From Alloacidobacterium dinghuense (lineage in GTDB: Bacteria; Acidobacteriota; Terriglobia; Terriglobales; Acidobacteriaceae): DNA of 64,000 nt. A program made the translations under genes and the position numbers. Under the pieces are notes generated by a model. That model did no database searches and had not been told where the DNA came from. It saw only the letters and a program-made list of their open reading frames with translations. Positions 50,584-63,912 of the stretch are shown piece after piece. The DNA is taken from NCBI RefSeq assembly GCF_014274465.1, contig NZ_CP060394.1, positions 992,001-1,056,000 of the forward strand, read 5' to 3'. How positions within the stretch are numbered: position 1 is the first letter of the stretch; every line of letters begins with the position of its first letter.

Positions 50584-53500
50584 ATGAAAAAGAACAGGCC
50601 GAGTGGTGCGGTCATATCTGATCCGGCCACTGCTGAAGTCAACAATGCTTTAAGCGGAAACGGACATACTATTTCGGGGGAGTCGGTAACGGCGGAACTA
50701 GGCGTAATCCTGGCGAGCCTGCAAAAGATGAAGGAGGGCAATTTTTCTGTCCGCCTGCCTGGAGCGTGGACAGGGCTCGCTGGAAAAGTAGCAGATACCT
50801 TCAATGACATCATCGCAGCAAATGAACAGATGGCGCTCGAACTGGCCAGGGTAGGTCAGGCTGTCGGGAAGAAAGGGCGCATTCGTGAGCGTGCCCGTTT
50901 CCATGCCCCCAAGGGCGCCTGGGGTGAGATGGAAACTTCCATCAATACCCTCGTTGACGACCTGTTGCGGCCGACGACAGAAGTCACACGTGCTATCGCT
51001 GCAGTCGCACAGGGCAGCCTCAATGAAAAAGTGCGACTCGACGTAGACGGCCGCCCTCTGGAAGGCGAGTTCCTGCGTTCGGCAAACATCGTGAACACGA
51101 TGATTCAGCAGTTAAGCGTCTTCACGTCAGAGGTTACGCGCGTGGCCCGCGAAGTCGGCACTGATGGCAAGCTCGGAGGACAGGCCGTGGTGCCCGGAGT
51201 TGCCGGAACCTGGAAGGACCTCACGGATTCCGTCAACCTGATGGCCAGCAACCTCACCAGCCAGGTGCGCAACATTGCTGAAGTAGCTACGGCGGTAGCA
51301 AGCGGCGACCTCTCACGCAAGATCACTGTCGACGTACACGGCGAGATTCTCCAGCTGAAAGAAGCCATTAACACGATGGTGGATCAGCTGCGATCTTTTG
51401 CTTCGGAAGTGACGCGCGTTGCGCGCGAAGTTGGAACAGATGGCAAGCTCGGCGGACAGGCGGTCGTTCCGGGCGTTGCCGGAACATGGAAGGATCTTAC
51501 CGACTCTGTGAATGCCATGGCGGGAAACCTGACGGCGCAGGTACGCAACATTGCCGAAGTAACAACCGCCGTGGCCCGCGGAGACCTGTCGCGCAAGATC
51601 ACTGTGGATGTGAAGGGAGAAATTCTTGAACTCAAAGAAACCATCAACACGATGGTTGATCAGCTCAACGCCTTCGCCGGTGAAGTGACACGCGTGGCGC
51701 GCGAAGTTGGAACCGAGGGAAAGCTGGGCGGCCAAGCTAGTGTGCCCGGAGTCGCTGGCACGTGGAAGGACCTGACTGACAACGTCAACTTCATGGCCAG
51801 CAACCTGACGGGTCAGGTGCGCAATATCGCCGAGGTTGCGACGGCAATTGCGAATGGCGATCTCTCCCGCAAGATTACCGTCGACGTTCGCGGCGAGATT
51901 CTTCAGCTCAAAGAAACGCTGAATACGATGGTTGATCAGCTAAACCGCTTCGCTGGCGAAGTAACGCGCGTGGCGCGCGAAGTGGGAACCGAGGGCAGGC
52001 TTGGGGGACAGGCAAACGTGCCCGGCGTTGCCGGAACGTGGAAGGACCTGACGGACTCAGTGAATTCGATGGCCGGAAACCTGACCGGACAAGTGCGCAA
52101 CATTGCAGAAGTTACAACCGCTGTTGCTGGCGGAGACTTGTCGCGCAAGATCACTGTCGATGTGAAGGGCGAAATCCTCGAACTCAAAAACACCATCAAT
52201 ACAATGGTGGACCAGCTTAACGCCTTTGCCAGCGAAGTAACGCGCGTGGCCCGCGAAGTCGGTACGGACGGCAAGCTCGGCGGACAGGCACAGGTGCCCG
52301 GCGTCGCTGGCACGTGGAAAGACCTAACCGACAACGTCAACTTCATGGCCAGCAACCTGACCGGCCAGGTGCGCAACATCGCTGAGGTTGCCACGGCCGT
52401 GGCACGTGGAGACTTGTCACGCAAGATCACCGTCGATGTCAAGGGCGAGATTCTAGAACTAAAGAACACGCTCAACACAATGGTTGACCAGCTGCGCGCA
52501 TTTGCTTCTGAAGTGACGCGCGTGGCTCGCGAAGTGGGTACGGACGGCAAGCTGGGCGGACAGGCCGCGGTGCCGGGTGTCGCGGGAACATGGAAAGATC
52601 TCACCGACTCGGTGAACTCGATGGCCAGCAACCTGACCAACCAGGTCCGCAACATCGCAGAGGTAGCCACGGCCATTGCCAGTGGCGACCTTTCGAAAAA
52701 GATCACAGTAAACGTCAGCGGCGAAATTCTTCTGCTCAAAGAAACCATCAACACGATGGTGGACCAGCTCAACGCCTTCGCCGGCGAAGTGACGCGCGTG
52801 GCTCGCGAGGTGGGTACGGAGGGAAATCTCGGTGGACAAGCCAGCGTGCCGGGAGTCGCCGGAACCTGGAAAGACCTTACCGACAACGTCAACTCGATGG
52901 CCGGAAACCTCACCAGCCAGGTGCGAAACATTGCTGAGGTTACGACAGCAGTAGCCCGCGGTGACCTGTCGCGTAAGATCACGGTCGACGTGAAGGGGGA
53001 AATCCTCGAACTTAAGAACACCATTAATACGATGGTGGACCAGCTCAATGCATTCGCCGGTGAAGTAACGCGCGTGGCCCGCGAAGTCGGCACCGACGGT
53101 AAGCTTGGCGGACAGGCACAGGTGCCCGGCGTCGCTGGTACGTGGAAAGACCTTACCGACAATGTAAACTTCATGGCCAGCAACCTGACCGGCCAAGTGC
53201 GCAACATCGCTGAGGTCGCCACGGCAATCGCTAACGGAGACTTGTCGAAGAAGATCACCGTCGACGTCCGCGGCGAAATCCTGCAGCTGAAGGAAACGCT
53301 GAACACGATGGTGGAGCAGCTGCGTTCCTTCGCGGCTGAGGTAACGCGCGTCGCGCGCGAAGTCGGCACCGACGGCAAGCTGGGTGGACAAGCTGTCGTG
53401 CCTGGCGTCGCCGGTACATGGAAGGACCTTACCGACTCCGTTAATGCTATGGCAGGAAACCTGACTGCTCAGGTGCGCAACATCGCTGAAGTAACTACGG

Positions 53501-56500
53501 CCGTCGCGCGCGGTGATCTGTCGCGCAAGATCACCGTAGATGTGAAAGGCGAAATTCTAGAACTCAAAGAAACCATCAACACCATGGTGGATCAGCTCAA
53601 CGCCTTCGCAGCTGAAGTAACGCGCGTTGGACGCGAAGTAGGAACCGAAGGCAGACTGGGAGGCCAAGCCCAGGTCCCTGGCGTTGCCGGTATCTGGAAG
53701 GACCTGACCGACAACGTGAATGTCATGGCTGCAAACCTGACCGAACAGGTGCGCGGCATCGTGAAAGTGGTGACGGCGGTCGCCAACGGCGTGCTCACGC
53801 AAAAGCTCACCGTGAACGCCAAGGGAGAAGTCGCCGCTCTGGCGGAGACGATCAACAGCATGACTGACACGTTGGCGACATTTGCCGATCAGGTAACTAC
53901 GGTGGCGCGCGAGGTCGGCGTCGAAGGCCGTCTCGGTGGACAGGCGAATGTGCCCGGCGCTGCTGGAACCTGGAAGGATCTTGTCGATAACGTAAACCTG
54001 CTTGCTGACAACCTGACCAACCAGGTTCGCGCCATCGCTGAAGTTGCAACGGCTGTGACAAAAGGCGACCTCACGCGGTCGATTCAGGTAGAGGCAAGAG
54101 GGGAAGTCTCAGAGTTGAAGGACAACATCAACACGATGATCAACAATCTTCGACTCACCACTGAGCGCAATACAGAACAGGATTGGCTCAAGACTAACCT
54201 TGCGCGCTTTACCGGTATGCTGCAAGGGCAGCGCGAACTGAGCACCGTAGGCCGCATGCTCCTTTCCGAACTGGCTCCGCTTGTGAATGCGCAACAGGGT
54301 GTGATCTACCAGATGGATTCCGAAGAGCCCGGTACCCTTACACTGCTCTCCGCCTACGCAAGCACACCGGCCGGACAACTCGAACGGATACCAATTGGCC
54401 AAGGCCTGATCGGCCAATGCGCGACCGAAAAGAAGCGGATGCTGATTGCCGATCTGCCGCCAAAGTCCACCATTCCCATTCGATCCGGCCTTTTTGAGTC
54501 AGTCCCGCAGAACGTAATCGTCTTGCCGGTGTTGTTTGAAGATCGAGTGAAGGCAGTGATCGAGTTGGCTACGCTCAGGGCGTTCACAGCCTCACATCTT
54601 GCTTTCCTGGAGCAGCTCACATCCAGCATCGGCATTGTATTGAACAGCATTGAAGCGACGATGCAGACCGAGGCGCTGCTGAAGCAATCGCAACAACTCG
54701 CCACCGAGCTTCAATCACAGCAGACAGAATTGCAGCAGACAAACGAACAGCTCGGGCTGAAGGCGCAGGAGCTGGCCGAACAAAATGTGGAAGTCGAACG
54801 CAAGAACCAGGAAATCGAGCAGGCCCGCAGAGCTCTGGAAGAAAAGGCCAAAGAACTGGCCCTCACTTCGAAGTACAAGTCAGAATTTCTGGCCAACATG
54901 TCGCATGAGTTGCGCACTCCGTTAAACAGCATTCTCGTTTTGGGGCAGCAACTCAGCGACAATCCGGATGGCAACCTTACTTCAAAGCAAATCGAATTTG
55001 CCCGCACGATCCATGCTGCTGGAACCGATCTGCTCACTCTGATCAGCGATATTCTCGATCTCTCAAAGATCGAGTCTGGTACGGTTTCCGTAGATGCGGA
55101 AGAGGTCTTCTTTGCCAGCCTGATTGAGATGGTTGCACGTCCGTTCCGGCATGAAGCTGAGAACAGAAAGCTTTCCTTCGATCTACACACGGATAAGCAT
55201 CTTACGCGCAGCCTGGTCACTGATTCGAAGCGTCTACAGCAGGTGCTCAAGAACTTGCTCTCGAATGCCTTCAAATTTACAGAGCAAGGCGGTGTTCTAC
55301 TCTCGGTGTTCAAAGCGGGCAATGGTTGGAGCGAGAATCATCCCATCCTGGGGAGCGCGGTTTCGGTGATCGCATTCGAAGTAGCTGACACGGGAATTGG
55401 AATCCCGCCAGAGAAGCAGAAAATTATTTTTGAAGCCTTTCAACAAGCGGATGCGGGTACGAGCCGCAAGTACGGTGGCACCGGGCTAGGTCTTGCAATC
55501 AGCCGCGAGCTTGCCAGTTTGCTTGGCGGTGAAATTCAATTGCGCAGTGCTCCAGGAAAAGGAAGCACATTCACCCTCTATCTGCCACAGACGTATGTTG
55601 GTCCTACAAGTTCAAGTAATACAGAGGATGCGTCAAGGGAGAAATCAAGAGTAGCTTCAGTCCTTCAACTTGCGAGCACATCTGTAGCCGAGCACTCGAC
55701 GGAAGAGGTTGAAGATGACCGCGGAACGCTGGAGCCGGGAGACACCACACTGTTGATCGTTGAGGATGACCCCCATTACGCTCGGGTTCTGTGCGATCTC
55801 GCTCGCGATAAAGGATTCAAAGTTCTGGTCGCATCGCGCGGCGCCGAGGCATTAGAGTTGGCGCGCGAATTTCGTCCCAGCGCTGTTTCGCTCGATGTAT
55901 TTCTGCCGGACATGCTGGGCTGGACGGTGCTCAATCATCTGAAGCAAGACCCGGGCATGCGGCATATACCTGTCCAGATGTTGACGATGGATGAGGATAG
56001 ACACCACGGCTTGTCACGGGGAGCATTTTCATTCGTGACCAAGCCAACGACGACCGAAGGTCTGGAAGCAACCTTGACTAAGATCAAGGAATTTTCGTCG
56101 ACACGACGCAAACGGCTGCTTGTGGTGGAAGATAATCCTGCCGAGCAGATGAGCATCAAGGAATTGCTCGGTTATGACGATATCGATGTATCCGTCGCTT
56201 CAAGCGGCGCGGAAGCTCTGGCTACAGTCCGCACACAGCAGGTTGACTGTGTGGTTCTTGATATGCGGTTGCCCGATATGACCGGCTTTGAGGTACTTGA
56301 ACAACTGCGAGATATGCCATCATTCAGCGACTTGCCGGTTGTCGTCTTTACCGGTAAGGAGTTGACTCCAGATGAAGATGCAAAGCTTCGCACGCTTGCC
56401 CGCAGCGTGGTCTTAAAGGATGTCGAATCGCCCGAACGCCTGCTGGATGAGACTTCACTGTTTCTCCATCGAGTAGTTGCTGATTTGCCGACGAATAAGC

Positions 56501-56913
56501 AGAATATGCTTGATCGTTTGCATAGATCAGACGACGCTCTGGTGGCGAAGAAGGTACTGGTTGTCGATGATGACGTGCGAAACATCTTCGCCCTGAGTAG
56601 CGTTCTTGAAAGAAGAGGTATGAGTGTTCTAACTGCGAGCACAGGGCGCGAGGCCATCGCCACACTTGAGTCCACACCCGATGTGGCGATTGTTCTGATG
56701 GATGTCATGATGCCGGAAATGGATGGATATGAGACCATGCAGGTCATACGTCGGAACGACGCCTACCGCAGGCTTCCGATCATCGCTCTTACAGCAAAAG
56801 CAATGAAGGGCGACCGAGAGAAATGCCTGGAGGCGGGTGCATCTGAATATCTGGCCAAGCCGGTGAATACGGAGCAGTTGCTGGCAGCTCTGCGTATGTG
56901 GCTCCACAGGTAG
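50584..56913 (+). CDS. Giant soluble hybrid histidine kinase with 11-unit HAMP array (group-III-like)
   Basis: The 2109-residue protein has no membrane helix. After a divergent N-terminal HAMP pair (~35-180) come eleven ~92-residue HAMP repeat units (about 181-1190), each '[19 protein letters not shown]', '[19 protein letters not shown]', '[20 protein letters not shown]', 'INTMVDQL'. A GAF domain (1200-1370) and coiled coil precede HisKA (His1441 in '[15 protein letters not shown]') and HATPase (~1553-1668, '[20 protein letters not shown]', '[13 protein letters not shown]'). Three receivers follow, with Asp1771, Asp1893 and Asp2040. HAMP arrays with this consensus characterise fungal osmosensing group-III kinases (Nik1/Os-1) and bacterial relatives. 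It probably senses osmotic or cell-wall stress in the cytoplasm. A second REC-PAS kinase gene follows after 17 bp. Confidence 0.9.
51124..54159 (+). repeat. Eleven tandem 276-bp units encoding the HAMP array
   Basis: The repeat unit is 276 bp (92 codons), in frame, with no gaps. Units start near 51124, 51400, 51676 and so on every 276 bp to 53884. Units 2 and 9 encode almost the same sequence; units 10 and 11 are the most diverged. Long DNA identity makes expansion or contraction by recombination likely. Confidence 0.9.
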
Positions 56914-58990: not shown

Positions 58991-60043
58991 ATGCGATCGA
59001 AATCTACGTTCAGGTCACGCGGCCGAATTGAGTCTCTTCTGATATTCGCGCTTGTGGGAGCTTTGCCGATGCCAAGTGCACATGCGACCTCCTGCGCTAC
59101 TGCATCGCAGCTGACCGCAACTCAGCGAGACGCTCTTTCAAACACTGCCCGCACCATGGTCGGCGAGGTGCAGAGCGGAGATGTGCAGGGTCTTCGAACC
59201 AGCACCATCCCCGCTGTTGCCGCTGATTTCAATGGAATAGCGAACTCTGCAGAAACCCTGAAGCCACTTCTTCAGAATGCAACCATTACTGTCGATAACC
59301 TGTTCACTTTTGATACTGGGACTGACCAGGCCGGCGCTCAGGGAATTCAGTTCTATTGCAGCCCGGCACACTCGAACATGACAGTCGTGCTTAACTTCCC
59401 CACGATACCGTCGGGAAAATATGCTGCTGTGATTCTTCACGCGACTGGCGTGCCTCAACCGCAGCAGATCTCCCTCGTTCTGTCGCAGTCCCAACCCAAC
59501 CAGTGGAAACTTGCAGGCTTTTTCAATAAGCCTATGTTGACGGCGGGACATGATGGCCTTTGGTACTGGTCTCAGGCGCGGCAATACTCACAGAAGAAAA
59601 TGAATTGGGATGCCTGGTTTTATTACCTGAACGCAGCTTTCCTTCTCGATCCCGTTGATTTCATTTCCAGTCCAAACCTGGAAAAACTACGGCGCGAAAC
59701 CGACCAGGTCCATCCTGACAATCTTCCTGGAGTGAAGTCCATGATGCTCGATGCTTCCGGTTCCTCCTTTGAAGTGACCGGGCTTGAGACGACAGATTCG
59801 CTGGGTGGCTTGGATCTCGTTGTGTATTACAACCCTAGTGCCATTCAGGCAGGTGGGCTGCGCGACCCGGTGACGGCACGAAAGCAAGTAGTGGACTTGA
59901 TGAAAGCAATGCTGGCTGTACATCCTGAACTGGGGTCAGCCTTTCACGGCATCTGGATCCATGCGAATCAAAACGGTGCTTCGGTATTCGCTTTGGAACT
60001 GCCGATGGATCAAATCGCTGGAGCAAACCCTGGGACTACTTAA
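58991..60043 (+). CDS. Secreted protein of unknown function
   Basis: The 350-residue protein has a signal peptide (residues 13-33, 'SLLIFALVGALPMPSAHATS'). The mature part has an N-terminal helical region ('LTATQRDALSNTARTMVGEVQSGDV' in pieces 42-68), a central beta domain ('AHSNMTVVLNFPTIPSGKYA', 'QPNQWKLAGFFNKPMLTAGH') and helical 'WSQARQYSQKKMNWDAWFYY', 'NAAFLLDPVDFISSPNLEKL', then 'IWIHANQNGASVFALELPMD'. Two Cys (33, 121) could form a disulfide. The combination resembles proteins of unknown function frequent in Acidobacteriota. Convergent with the thymidylate-kinase-like gene. No specific role can be proposed. Confidence 0.7.
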   Translation: MRSKSTFRSRGRIESLLIFALVGALPMPSAHATSCATASQLTATQRDALSNTARTMVGEVQSGDVQGLRTSTIPAVAADFNGIANSAETLKPLLQNATITVDNLFTFDTGTDQAGAQGIQFYCSPAHSNMTVVLNFPTIPSGKYAAVILHATGVPQPQQISLVLSQSQPNQWKLAGFFNKPMLTAGHDGLWYWSQARQYSQKKMNWDAWFYYLNAAFLLDPVDFISSPNLEKLRRETDQVHPDNLPGVKSMMLDASGSSFEVTGLETTDSLGGLDLVVYYNPSAIQAGGLRDPVTARKQVVDLMKAMLAVHPELGSAFHGIWIHANQNGASVFALELPMDQIAGANPGTT

Positions 60044-60171: not shown

Positions 60172-60942
60172 TCACGAAACGTTTGGATGGACATCTTCCT
60201 CGTCGAGCGGGGCGTGAACACGATGATCAGCATCAAGCAACTCTGTACTCCGCGTGTATTGACACTCATCGAGAGACAGCTGTTTCAGTACGTGTTTCCA
60301 AATGTGTTCGTGAGCCTCCCGGGCGGGCATCGGATCGATGATGGTTATTCCACCAATCAGTTCGGTGAGGGCAATATAGGATGCACGGTTCGTATGGAGA
60401 AATTCGAGAGGATATTCAGGCTTTCGTGCGCGAGCTTGAACCGGATCCGCATCCAGTAGAAAGCTGACATGCGGTTTTGGCACAATCGTCATGATTACTC
60501 GAGCGTAAGCGCGATTAACTGAATTGCTTAGTATCAGGTTTGAGAGTTCGTCGTAAGCATATCGATCAAATATGATGAAGTCTGCATCAGACCGTATAGT
60601 TTTGTTAACCATAAGTCGCAATGAGACGGCGTCGGCGAAATAAAGGCACAATCGAACTAGAGTCATGGGCCAAGAACGGACATTTTTGTCTCGCCGATTA
60701 ATTGGTTTGTCTGGACTTCCGACTCCTTTGTCTCCTTTAAAGAGAGTGTGCCCACTTACTTCTCGTAGACGCGTAAATGTCGCAACGTTATCCCAAAAAG
60801 TAATGAGCTGAATGCGCGCTCCAGTGCGCTCAATCTTCGTTCGAAGCGCTTCAATTTGAGTGCTTTTCCCGGCGCCGTCGATGCCGGAGAAGCTTACCAA
60901 TATGGGACGCCTATTCGTTGAATGTGTTGCGTCGAGTTTCAT
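60172..60942 (-). CDS. Thymidylate-kinase-like P-loop protein
   Basis: The 256-residue protein has the Walker A 'LVSFSGIDGAGKSTQIEALR' (Lys26), a 'DADFIIFDRYAYDELSNL' DR(Y/H) motif as in thymidylate kinases, and 'VSFLLDADPVQARARKPEYP'. The region after the P-loop departs from true Tmk: 'DNVATFTRLREVSGHTLFKG' and 'RRDKNVRSWPMTLVRLCLYF' contain an extra segment typical of Tmk-like proteins in exopolysaccharide loci, where the function is not known. It could phosphorylate a nucleotide or sugar precursor. It is last in the minus-strand flippase-STAS group (17 bp after its neighbour). Confidence 0.75.
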   Translation of the reverse strand: MKLDATHSTNRRPILVSFSGIDGAGKSTQIEALRTKIERTGARIQLITFWDNVATFTRLREVSGHTLFKGDKGVGSPDKPINRRDKNVRSWPMTLVRLCLYFADAVSLRLMVNKTIRSDADFIIFDRYAYDELSNLILSNSVNRAYARVIMTIVPKPHVSFLLDADPVQARARKPEYPLEFLHTNRASYIALTELIGGITIIDPMPAREAHEHIWKHVLKQLSLDECQYTRSTELLDADHRVHAPLDEEDVHPNVS

Positions 60943-60958: not shown

Positions 60959-61447
60959 TCAATGTGGCTGGCTGGGGCTTCCCTTAGAGAGGGCGACGAC
61001 TGTTCCTACTGCGACACCCGTGGCCACGACAATACCTACACTAATAAGGATGGCACGTCTTCTCTTCTGCTTCGCAGGCGCTATAGCTGCTCCGGCCGGA
61101 CGTGAAGCTGCAACGCCCACGATTGTTTCGTATGGCGCTGCAGCAGTGCCTACAGGTTGCGGAGTACTTTGCTGCGGTTCCGGAGCGTTCTGCAAGCTAT
61201 TTGACGGGACAGCCTGCGCCGCAGGAGCGGAAGTGCCAGACGATGTTTCAGGTTGCGTTGAGTTGGTGCGTGGCGCGTCAGCTTCACTGCTTGGCATTTG
61301 CGATTGGGCAGGGGACGCGCTTTGCGGCTGCTGTTCCTGTGGTGCCTGCTGTGGTGATGCTGTGCTTGCTTCACAAAATGGTGCAATCAAAAGTATCACC
61401 AGACATGCCGCTATTTGCTGCCGGATCCAAGAACTTGAGATTGTCAT
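60959..61447 (-). CDS. Pro/Gln/Ala-rich exported or membrane protein
   Basis: The 162-residue protein has an N-terminal hydrophobic segment (residues 8-27, 'IRQQIAACLVILLIAPFCEA') that looks like a signal peptide, a long disordered Pro/Gln/Ser/Ala linker (30-110), and a C-terminal membrane helix ('RRRAILISVGIVVATGVAVGTVVAL' in parts, residues 130-155) preceded by basic residues. This bitopic layout fits a periplasm-spanning anchor or linker. Low-complexity sequence gives no family. The gene lies between the STAS and thymidylate-kinase-like genes on the same strand. Confidence 0.6.
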   Translation of the reverse strand: MTISSSWIRQQIAACLVILLIAPFCEASTASPQQAPQEQQPQSASPAQSQMPSSEADAPRTNSTQPETSSGTSAPAAQAVPSNSLQNAPEPQQSTPQPVGTAAAPYETIVGVAASRPAGAAIAPAKQKRRRAILISVGIVVATGVAVGTVVALSKGSPSQPH

Positions 61448-61484: not shown

Positions 61485-61928
61485 CTATGCCGCTTGTTCT
61501 GATGCCAGAGGTGAGGACCCGGAGAGCAACTCTTGTGAAATTGCATACATCGGCGCCTGATGAAAGCTGTTCACCGCCTCCTGGGTCGTATGAAAGACTT
61601 CAAACAAGCGGATTGCTCCGATGCGTTCCAGAGTTGCTAGTGCTTCGCGAGGAATCGCAGCAAGCTTAACGTCGCCATTGCGTTTCATCGCTTCTTCCAA
61701 ACACCGCAGCAACACGTGAATTGCGATCCTGTCCATTTGGTGTATGTTGGTACAGTCGAGCACAAGACGTGGGCGTTCGGCGTTCATGTAATTCTCTATT
61801 TCGCGAAAGAAGATCCATCTTTGCCGCAGGCTTAATTTCTCCGGCAACTGCTTTACCATTACGGCGCGTCCTTGAATTGTCATATCTGTATGCCTGCCTT
61901 TGCTGCATTTGCCTAACTCGTCGTTCAT
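61485..61928 (-). CDS. STAS-domain protein lacking the phosphorylatable serine
   Basis: The 147-residue protein starts at ATG 61928, 13 bases after the flippase stop; an alternative start is ATG 61883 behind AAAGGCAGG (132 residues). The STAS fold is clear: 'TIQGRAVMVKQLPEKLSLRQ', 'RLVLDCTNIHQMDRIAIHVL', 'EALATLERIGAIRLFEVFHT'. At the place of the conserved DSSG/DSxG switch the sequence is 'MDRIAI', with Arg67 where Ser or Thr is expected. It therefore cannot be switched by RsbW-type phosphorylation in the usual way. It sits among polysaccharide-export genes, so a structural or scaffolding role there is more likely than sigma-factor control; this is inference. Confidence 0.78.
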   Translation of the reverse strand: MNDELGKCSKGRHTDMTIQGRAVMVKQLPEKLSLRQRWIFFREIENYMNAERPRLVLDCTNIHQMDRIAIHVLLRCLEEAMKRNGDVKLAAIPREALATLERIGAIRLFEVFHTTQEAVNSFHQAPMYAISQELLSGSSPLASEQAA

Positions 61929-61941
61929 ATTTCTCAAACGT

Positions 61942-63912
61942 TTAAGAACTCTGCAAAAGGCGTGTAAGTTCCCTTTCGGGATCACGGACAAGATGCGCCA
62001 AGAGGTTTCGCCCATATCGAAAGAGGGTCAAGGGGTTCGTGTTGTACCAGCAGCATTGCGTCATTCTTGGCGACAAACCGCATAGAAAACGGAGTTTGTG
62101 CACACTGTGGGGCGAAGTGAGTGTTGCTGCCACCAGGCGATGATTTCCATCAAGAACTGTTAGAGGTTCGCTTTCGTTTATCCCAATGAGAACTACAGTG
62201 CCCAAAATCGCGTCTTCTTTGAGAAGCTGATTGCGAATTGCGGTAATCTTTGACAGAAATGGACCTTCGACAACGTTGTCATACTTGCGAATTCGCTCGG
62301 CCACGTCAGTGATGGAGTAATTGCCCCGCGCTAATTTTCGCCACTGTGCGCGAGGAAATGCCCGAATGTGATCTAATCCCGTTTCCCGTACTTCAACTTC
62401 GTACCAACTAGTTCCTGACGGGAGTTCTTTCCACAAAGACAAATGCCGTATGAAGAATAGAGCGCGGCGCTTCGCATTTTCGCCAGCATCATCAAGGTCA
62501 GGATTGATAACAATCTCGCGCAAAGCTTCTCGGTAATCGCGAAAGGCGGGATTGTCGAAATCGCTCTTCAGAAACTCAGCGATGACCTCATCCTCTGAGA
62601 TGCGCCGAAGAACTCGGATTGGTCGAACGGGTTCAAACGGCTGTAAAACTTCTGATTCGCCTAACGTACTGCGGAAAAACGGCAATGCGACTAGAGCCAG
62701 CAAAATGAACATCAGGATCAACTGGACCAGGATGACTTGCTGCAGAGATGAATGAAATCGGCAAATGCCTGCGACGACAACGCCACTGAACGCCAACTGG
62801 ATCCAGCTAGTATTGGCAATCTTGTAGGACATTTCGTACGTGATAATTACGACGCTTAACGAATAAATCACAGTCGTAATGGCGTAGAGCGCCAACAAAT
62901 ACGGAAGACCATGCCTACCACCAATTGCAAATCCAGATCCGAAGAACGTTGTCCAAAGCGAAGCAGGCGTGATACACAGGGCAATGGCCAATACAGAACC
63001 AATTCCCAAAACCAGGAGCAGTGAAGTTGTGAGCAGCTTGTGATTTCTTCTCTCTTCTTCACGCGTGCCTGCAGCAAGCGGAAACATGGTGTTGACCACC
63101 GCCGAGGAAAAAGCAAAGATGACACGCCCTACCATAGCCACCGCGGCATAGAGTCCCGCCGTATTTGGCGCAAAGAAGTGTTTCACCAGCACGATGTCGC
63201 AGTTATTGATGAGAACCTGACCGGCAAAAAAGACCATTCCCTGGAGTGTTTCACGAAGGGCATACGACAAACGAAGCTGGTTGGGAATCAGGGTTGGGAG
63301 TTTCGGTACGGCGGCAAGGTAAGCGACCGCTACGGCTGCGGAATTTGCTGCGATCACGCCCTCAACACCCAGGCCAAGCATGATCAATAAAAGGGACCCA
63401 CCGAGTCGAACCGCACCTTCGAGCACTAGATTGGTGGCTAAGCGACGGAATCCATAAGCCCCCTGAATGTAACCGCGTCGGCTTCCTAAGGGAACATAAA
63501 ACGCTGCTCCAACCGCGAGCAAGGCAACGAGAAACGGGCTAGGCAACTTGAGATACTCAGCGATTGCGCTTTGAAACAGCAAAAGAAGAAGGCCGGCAAG
63601 GATGCCGCATCCCCACGCGCCGCGATGGAAATCCCGATACGCCGCGCCTTTGTCTTCTGGCGAAGACTGTTGCGCCACCATCTTTGCAGAGACGATCTGA
63701 AAAGAGAGGGTTACTGCGGATATAAGAGTCAGAAGTGTGTAAACCGCAGTAGCGTGTCCAAAACCTGTCGGACCCAGGAAACGTGCAACTGCGATGTTAT
63801 ATGCAAAATTAATGGCGGTTGCCAGGCCTGAGCCTGAGAGCAATACAAAACTTCCTGAGAGAATGCGGGATTGAAGCGTCTTTACTTCTTGCGTCGGGCC
63901 TCTTTTTACCAC
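61942..63912 (-). CDS. Wzx-like flippase fused to a C-terminal DGNHR (ParB/sulfiredoxin-like) domain
   Basis: The 656-residue protein starts at GTG 63912 (GGAG eight bases before). Residues 15-430 hold about twelve helices of a polysaccharide flippase ('LSGSGLATAINFAYNIAVAR', 'GPTGFGHATAVYTLLTLISA', 'LINNCDIVLVKHFFAPNTAG', 'AVVNTMFPLAAG'). From residue ~432 a soluble domain of ~220 residues follows: 'RRISEDEVIAEFLKSDFDNP', 'REIVINPDLDDAGENAKRRA', 'WYEVEVRETGLDHIRAFP' and 'VLDGNHRLVAATL' (Asp588, His591, Arg592). The DGNHR motif is that of ParB/sulfiredoxin-like enzymes that bind nucleotides. The fusion is unusual and suggests a nucleotide-dependent function on the cytoplasmic side of lipid-linked glycan export. 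It heads a minus-strand group. Confidence 0.82.
   Translation of the reverse strand: MVKRGPTQEVKTLQSRILSGSFVLLSGSGLATAINFAYNIAVARFLGPTGFGHATAVYTLLTLISAVTLSFQIVSAKMVAQQSSPEDKGAAYRDFHRGAWGCGILAGLLLLLFQSAIAEYLKLPSPFLVALLAVGAAFYVPLGSRRGYIQGAYGFRRLATNLVLEGAVRLGGSLLLIMLGLGVEGVIAANSAAVAVAYLAAVPKLPTLIPNQLRLSYALRETLQGMVFFAGQVLINNCDIVLVKHFFAPNTAGLYAAVAMVGRVIFAFSSAVVNTMFPLAAGTREEERRNHKLLTTSLLLVLGIGSVLAIALCITPASLWTTFFGSGFAIGGRHGLPYLLALYAITTVIYSLSVVIITYEMSYKIANTSWIQLAFSGVVVAGICRFHSSLQQVILVQLILMFILLALVALPFFRSTLGESEVLQPFEPVRPIRVLRRISEDEVIAEFLKSDFDNPAFRDYREALREIVINPDLDDAGENAKRRALFFIRHLSLWKELPSGTSWYEVEVRETGLDHIRAFPRAQWRKLARGNYSITDVAERIRKYDNVVEGPFLSKITAIRNQLLKEDAILGTVVLIGINESEPLTVLDGNHRLVAATLTSPHSVHKLRFLCGLSPRMTQCCWYNTNPLTLFRYGRNLLAHLVRDPERELTRLLQSS

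Follow-up and report, generated by a model that had tools for sequence, protein, structure and literature searches.

The window, a stretch of 64,000 nucleotides of Alloacidobacterium dinghuense, encodes a 656-residue protein in which a Wzx/MOP-type flippase is genuinely fused to a cytoplasmic domain that very probably belongs to the ParB/sulfiredoxin (Srx) superfamily. This is a new and previously undescribed architecture, in which the conserved attachment is new, while the transporter type and the superfamily of the attachment are both known; what is new is the architecture, not the kind of system. The initial annotation had claimed a fusion of a flippase to a DGNHR domain, and the reading frame was found to span both parts at exactly 61942-63912 (minus strand), with 75 of the 80 loci kept from a scan of 84,980 species genomes likewise fused. 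The parts of the gene are as follows.

61942..63912, minus strand: the whole fusion gene (656 aa), an open reading frame for a MOP/Wzx-type flippase with a C-terminal DGNHR domain
62638..63912, minus strand: the membrane part, residues 1-425, with 12 predicted transmembrane (TM) helices (AlphaFold2 model, hydropathy, Foldseek)
61945..62628, minus strand: the C-terminal cytoplasmic domain, residues 429-656, divergent and ParB/Srx-like (AlphaFold2, profile-profile comparison, PHROG)
62338..62358, minus strand: the near-invariant FPRAQWR motif, residues 519-525, a candidate Box I or second pocket wall
62137..62151, minus strand: the DGNHR motif, residues 588-592, the putative counterpart of the ParB GxxR phosphate box (Box II)
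62038..62082, minus strand: the CGLSPRMTQCCWYNT motif, residues 611-625, a Cys/aromatic signature of the flippase-linked family

The 656 codons are open from a GTG start with no internal stop, and the gene is present in a single copy in its own genome (one contig, 6.27 Mb). The chance that two adjoining genes were wrongly joined by a frame or assembly error, a concern raised at the outset, is close to nil. One clade does have separate adjoining or overlapping genes, but the same fused frame recurs in dozens of independent assemblies and the whole frame is under purifying selection. The cultured strains Acidobacteriaceae KBS 83 (L078) and Acidipila rosea DSM 103428 (L086) both carry the fusion, which is therefore no artefact of metagenome assembly. 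Purifying selection acts on each half: between close pairs, dN/dS was 0.05-0.21 in the flippase part and 0.01-0.23 in the domain.

Hydropathy and the AlphaFold2 model placed 12 membrane helices within residues 13-421 (full-length model: pLDDT 88, pTM 0.69). Positive charges (K+R) concentrate on the inner loops (4, 3, 4, 3, 4, 1 and 3, versus 1, 1, 0, 1, 1 and 0 on the outer loops), and by the positive-inside rule both termini, including the C-terminal domain, are thus predicted to be cytoplasmic. Foldseek matched the membrane part to WzxE (E 4e-7, TM-score by target length 0.74-0.75) and also to MATE and MurJ, in keeping with a MOP fold of 12-14 TM helices. The Pfam family Polysacc_synt (PF01943) scored below its gathering threshold (25 bits versus 28.2, E 1.5e-5, over 268 positions), which we take as sequence divergence, the modelled membrane fold being clear. 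Given that PF01943 is sub-threshold while fold comparison settles the type, the part is classed by fold; the earlier description of a complete Wzx-type membrane part kept its WzxE-like fold, and its family name was loosened to Wzx/MOP-type. The protein thereby resembles Wzx/WzxE in its 12 helices, its fold, its inward C-terminus and its glycosyltransferase surroundings, and differs from them in the added cytoplasmic domain and the sub-cut-off Polysacc_synt match. The same genome has five other flippases, scoring above the Pfam cut-off, but a single copy of the domain, which thus sets this flippase apart; we infer that this flippase transports a lipid-linked glycan.

The soluble C-terminal part, at first put at about 220 residues, is a compact cytoplasmic domain of about 228 residues (429-656), and the full-length model places a separate domain from residue 432. 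Modelled by itself from an alignment of 78 domains, it was again compact, with a mean pLDDT of 90.9. In domain numbering, the model consists of a strand (4-10), three helices (12-67), a strand (74-80), further helices, strands 144-149 and 156-160, the GNHR box, a helix (162-171), a strand (180-185) and two C-terminal helices. We take the stretch 74-185 to show the ParB/Srx order, with GNHR at the place of ParB's GxxR phosphate box. In the predicted fold DGNHR follows a strand and precedes a helix, as a GxxR box does.

The motif is not a chance occurrence: a search without a motif filter gave 24 Acidobacteriaceae homologues, every one of them with [D/E]GNHR (12 with D, 12 with E), and two distant actinobacterial solo homologues have EGHLR in its place. 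With DGHIR in a solo relative from another acidobacterial family, these variants define a common core of an acidic residue followed by G-x-x-R-x-x-A. That GNHR does not vary among the 78 aligned rows is partly built in, since the genome scan searched for this very motif. Some 20 residues besides the box are invariant in the 78 rows, many of them polar or aromatic. Within FPRAQWR these are R93 and W96 (domain numbering), the W being kept in the distant solo relatives too; within CGLSPRMTQCCWYNT they are G184, S186, M189, C193, W194, Y195 and T197, and further invariant positions include R54, W66, E68, P70, W75 and Y205. Only the flippase-linked family has the Cys pair and the two C-terminal helices.

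Kinship with the ParB/Srx superfamily was sought at several levels. Searches of the domain against Pfam, NCBIfam, PADLOC and PDB sequences returned nothing above cut-off; in Pfam, PF02195 does not recognise it, and PADLOC PD-Lambda-5_A matches were weak (E 0.005-0.02). Profile-profile comparison with divergent ParB-like domains (11 rows of the same bacterial group, some rows themselves carrying SGNHR or DGHLR) gave a P of about 4.5e-5 and a score of 35.7 over ~45 of the 228 columns (domain residues 127-171), and in this hhalign alignment the GxxR is in register. The match was checked by reversal, by 200 column shuffles (best score 23.3 versus the real 35.7) and against 13 unrelated families, whose profiles gave P values of at least 0.19. 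It is modest, and significance was reached with the divergent ParB-like domains only, comparison with 12 canonical ParB sequences being not significant (P 0.08-0.19). The PHROG family 'ParB-like partition protein' was matched by 5 of 26 members (best E 0.003; residues 130-171 in the window protein), one member matched DndB (E 0.033), and in 60 genomes of the phylum no protein passed the threshold for PF08857 (ParBc_2). Foldseek of the domain against the PDB gave no match with E below 0.001, the weak ones including, at E 4-8, sulfiredoxin (7lj1, 6ky4), Noc (7ol9) and the SerK-like 1vk1; against viral models, 16 of the 50 matches listed were named ParB, Spo0J or sulfiredoxin. The ParB/Srx likeness proposed at the start therefore stands in fold order and in a profile match at superfamily level, and falls short of an individually significant PDB match.

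Within that superfamily, the domain shares the helix-strand-strand-GxxR-helix-strand order of the ParB-CTPases and Srx, whereas it has no HTH or dimerisation domain and adds N-terminal helices and a C-terminal Cys/Trp extension. Two closer identities were rejected. A canonical ParB (ParABS) would have matches to PF02195, HTH and dimerisation domains, which are missing here, and the genome has its own separate ParB. As for sulfiredoxin, the catalytic Cys of GCHR is replaced by Asn in all fused and split members.

Apart from the window's own genome, ~20 of 61 related genomes gave strong domain scores, mostly from frames 650-720 codons long. Many soil-dwelling Acidobacteriaceae carry the domain: 94 of the 282 genomes searched in the family have it, representing 39 of the 62 genera, roughly three quarters of the matches lying in frames of more than 600 codons. 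A phylum-wide sample of 297 genomes contained it in seven, six of them Acidobacteriaceae and the seventh with a solo gene. The other loci of the 80 comprise four with the domain as the next gene (overlap of ~4-30 bases) and one without a flippase; stand-alone versions near Wzx genes, which the initial annotation suggested looking for, thus exist as a separate gene beside the flippase. One derived clade has the gene split into two neighbouring or overlapping genes. A tree of 97 domains nests the separate-gene state inside the fused family (two state changes). Within the family, fusion therefore came first, and the split forms arose by fission or as derived paralogues. A record assigned to Rhodanobacteraceae (L099) contains a complete acidobacterial operon around the fusion, so mis-binning or cluster transfer is likely, and it was left out as a case from another phylum.

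Two paralogues (L052:8561-9583 and L053:8587-9564, in genomes G007 and G014) have an N-terminal membrane segment instead of the flippase and adjoin an EPSP synthase gene and an alpha/beta hydrolase; a flippase remnant was looked for upstream of them and not found. More distant relatives, with EGHLR or DGHIR, are solo genes.

L057:6989-7597 and L058:6989-7597: solo relatives on actinomycete megaplasmids
L145:1293-2336: solo relative in another acidobacterial family

The solo proteins of Streptantibioticus and Kitasatospora are the same domain, aligning with most of the window domain at ~27% identity. The solo relatives, that of the other acidobacterial family included, have no flippase and lie outside polysaccharide loci in the cases seen. 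They keep the G and mostly the M of CGLSPRMTQCCWYNT, and lack the Cys pair and the C-terminal helices. The solo relatives are an uncatalogued protein family, and the L145 gene adjoins one resembling, by eye, a DUF4062-type protein. Two scans of viral contigs found no relative of the domain, and a search of phages gave no match to the window domain and a 64-residue match to a solo relative only; hence the domain is no phage part.

The fusion gene is the first of four genes on the same strand, followed by those for a STAS protein, a one-helix protein and a kinase with gaps of 58, 37 and 16 bases, respectively.

61485..61883, minus strand: STAS-domain protein, the next gene of the operon (PF01740, E 3.9e-11)
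60959..61447, minus strand: small one-TM protein with a PAGxAIAPAKQ motif (family c7, the motif and position being those of the c7 proteins)
60172..60942, minus strand: thymidylate-kinase-like P-loop kinase, the last gene of the operon (PF02223, E 4.1e-8)

The STAS gene was assigned an ATG start at 61883 by comparison with homologues (the mechanical reading frame starts at 62015). A STAS homologue was present in 27 of the 45 loci with full flanks, on the same strand in 26. The protein has D-A-A-G instead of D-S-S-G, and the family has Ala or another residue at the serine position, which we take to be the site phosphorylated in SpoIIAA-type switches. A phospho-switch operated by this neighbour was put aside because the phosphorylatable serine is absent; the STAS protein may be a non-phosphorylated partner of the flippase domain. 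The c7-type protein, which has no Pfam match, is encoded in 30 of the 45 loci, and a thymidylate-kinase-like gene lies downstream of the flippase in 34. Conserved in this distinct kinase family are the Walker A motif, FSGIDGAGKSTQ, RRDKNVR, DRYxYDELANL and RKPEYP, and the protein is unlikely to be a true dTMP kinase. Genes for glycan assembly were found nearby, namely for a GH99-like hydrolase, a GT2 and a GT-C-like membrane protein upstream beyond the window, and for a GT4 and a hexapeptide transferase, together with a 1400-residue TPR protein, in the loci of other genomes. By its gene content, the locus is of a polysaccharide or glycolipid type.

We tentatively favour a role for the domain as a membrane-tethered, nucleotide-dependent enzyme acting on a lipid-linked glycan over one as a nucleotide-operated gate; these readings, and that of a scaffold, all derive from the anatomy of the protein and its relatives. 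As an enzyme, the domain would sit at the inner mouth of a dedicated Wzx/MOP-type flippase serving a lipid-linked glycan and would use [D/E]GNHR, where its helix begins, to bind a nucleotide. At the inner face it might then, in a SerK-like manner, attach a phosphate, or a group derived from the nucleotide, either to the lipid-linked glycan or to the carrier. The modification would occur just before the substrate enters the flippase, so that the fusion couples modification to export. SerK, a ParB-fold enzyme that phosphorylates a small molecule (PMC5120207), offers the closest biochemical parallel; the domain is like it only in fold order and in the acidic residue before GxHR, the 1vk1 fold match being weak and a PDB sequence match lacking. 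An enzyme is preferred because of the many polar and aromatic residues among the invariant ones besides the box, because the separate-gene versions must work in trans, because the flippase-less paralogues keep a membrane segment, and because solo relatives exist without any flippase. The kinase gene that closes the operon lends this reading further support. Speaking against it are the failure of PF02195 to recognise the domain, the lack of an individually significant PDB fold match, and a profile match that covers some 45 columns and is significant with divergent ParB-like domains only.

As a gate, the domain would bind an NTP and put the flippase into a permissive or a blocked state in response to the supply of energy or nucleotide sugars, performing no glycan chemistry. 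We regard this as possible, and as only slightly less likely than the enzyme. ParB-fold domains are versatile NTP switches according to a 2025 survey (PMC12704722), and a regulatory C-terminal domain on a MOP flippase has a precedent in mycobacterial MurJ (MviN), which likewise carries a cytoplasmic C-terminal domain with an NTP-binding type of fold (PMC6180346). That domain is, however, a pseudokinase of unrelated fold, with lipid II as the flippase substrate and FhaA as the partner. Attachment to a transporter is also the older and usual state in the family, and with five ordinary flippases besides, this one is specially equipped. Against a gate, paralogues and solo relatives without a flippase exist, the split clade manages without a covalent link, and the strong invariance around the box exceeds the needs of a simple sensor. 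A scaffold, in which the ParB/Srx core has no nucleotide function and brings the STAS protein and the kinase together with glycosyltransferases at the flippase, seems unlikely to us. It would fit the conserved operon order and the adjacency in most loci of a STAS gene, whose product lacks the serine that is usually phosphorylated and so may serve as a partner to be bound; in the survey, moreover, only 11 of 28 purified ParB-fold proteins bound an NTP (PMC12704722). The retention of GNHR in every unfiltered member, and of G-x-x-R even in distant solos, is instead what is expected of a phosphate pocket, not of a docking face. Highly improbable is thiol or metal chemistry, with the near-invariant Cys pair and Cys 611 forming a redox or metal site framed by the ParB-like core. 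C183, C192 and C193 (domain numbering) are kept in 77, 74 and 78 of the 78 rows, and sulfiredoxin, of the same superfamily, works on thiols, but the Asn at the Srx catalytic position is found throughout and the solo relatives lack the cysteines.

Ion gradients and substrate flow, not nucleotides, are believed to drive Wzx flippases. It is possible, though still tentative, that the fusion is a nucleotide-coupled Wzx, in which a ParB/Srx-type domain would tie transport to nucleotide binding or to phosphotransfer to the substrate; it would then be the first case of a ParB-fold enzyme or switch acting in cell-envelope export. Being widespread and conserved, the fusion offers a concrete instance, open to test, of a possible link between glycan export and a nucleotide step. 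The ParB/Srx superfamily, so far associated mainly with the chemistry of DNA, thiols and serine, would also reach into membrane glycan export, through a domain family missing from the curated libraries searched. The main text of the 2025 survey of ParB-fold fusions, which searched with PF02195, lists HTH, HNH, methyltransferase, CBS, ASCH and other partners and mentions neither flippase nor polysaccharide (PMC12704722). A full-text search of open-access literature for flippase, ParB and Wzx yielded no such fusion among the papers listed, going by titles and abstract openings.

Other genes of the window include the following. On the plus strand, 58991-60043 encodes a secreted-looking protein of 350 aa with no Pfam family above cut-off, and its homologues (family c16) occur near the operon in 12 of the 45 loci. 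The gene at 50584-56913 (plus strand) encodes a very large hybrid histidine kinase of 2109 aa with a long series of near-identical HAMP-looking repeats, and is followed by a response-regulator histidine kinase gene.
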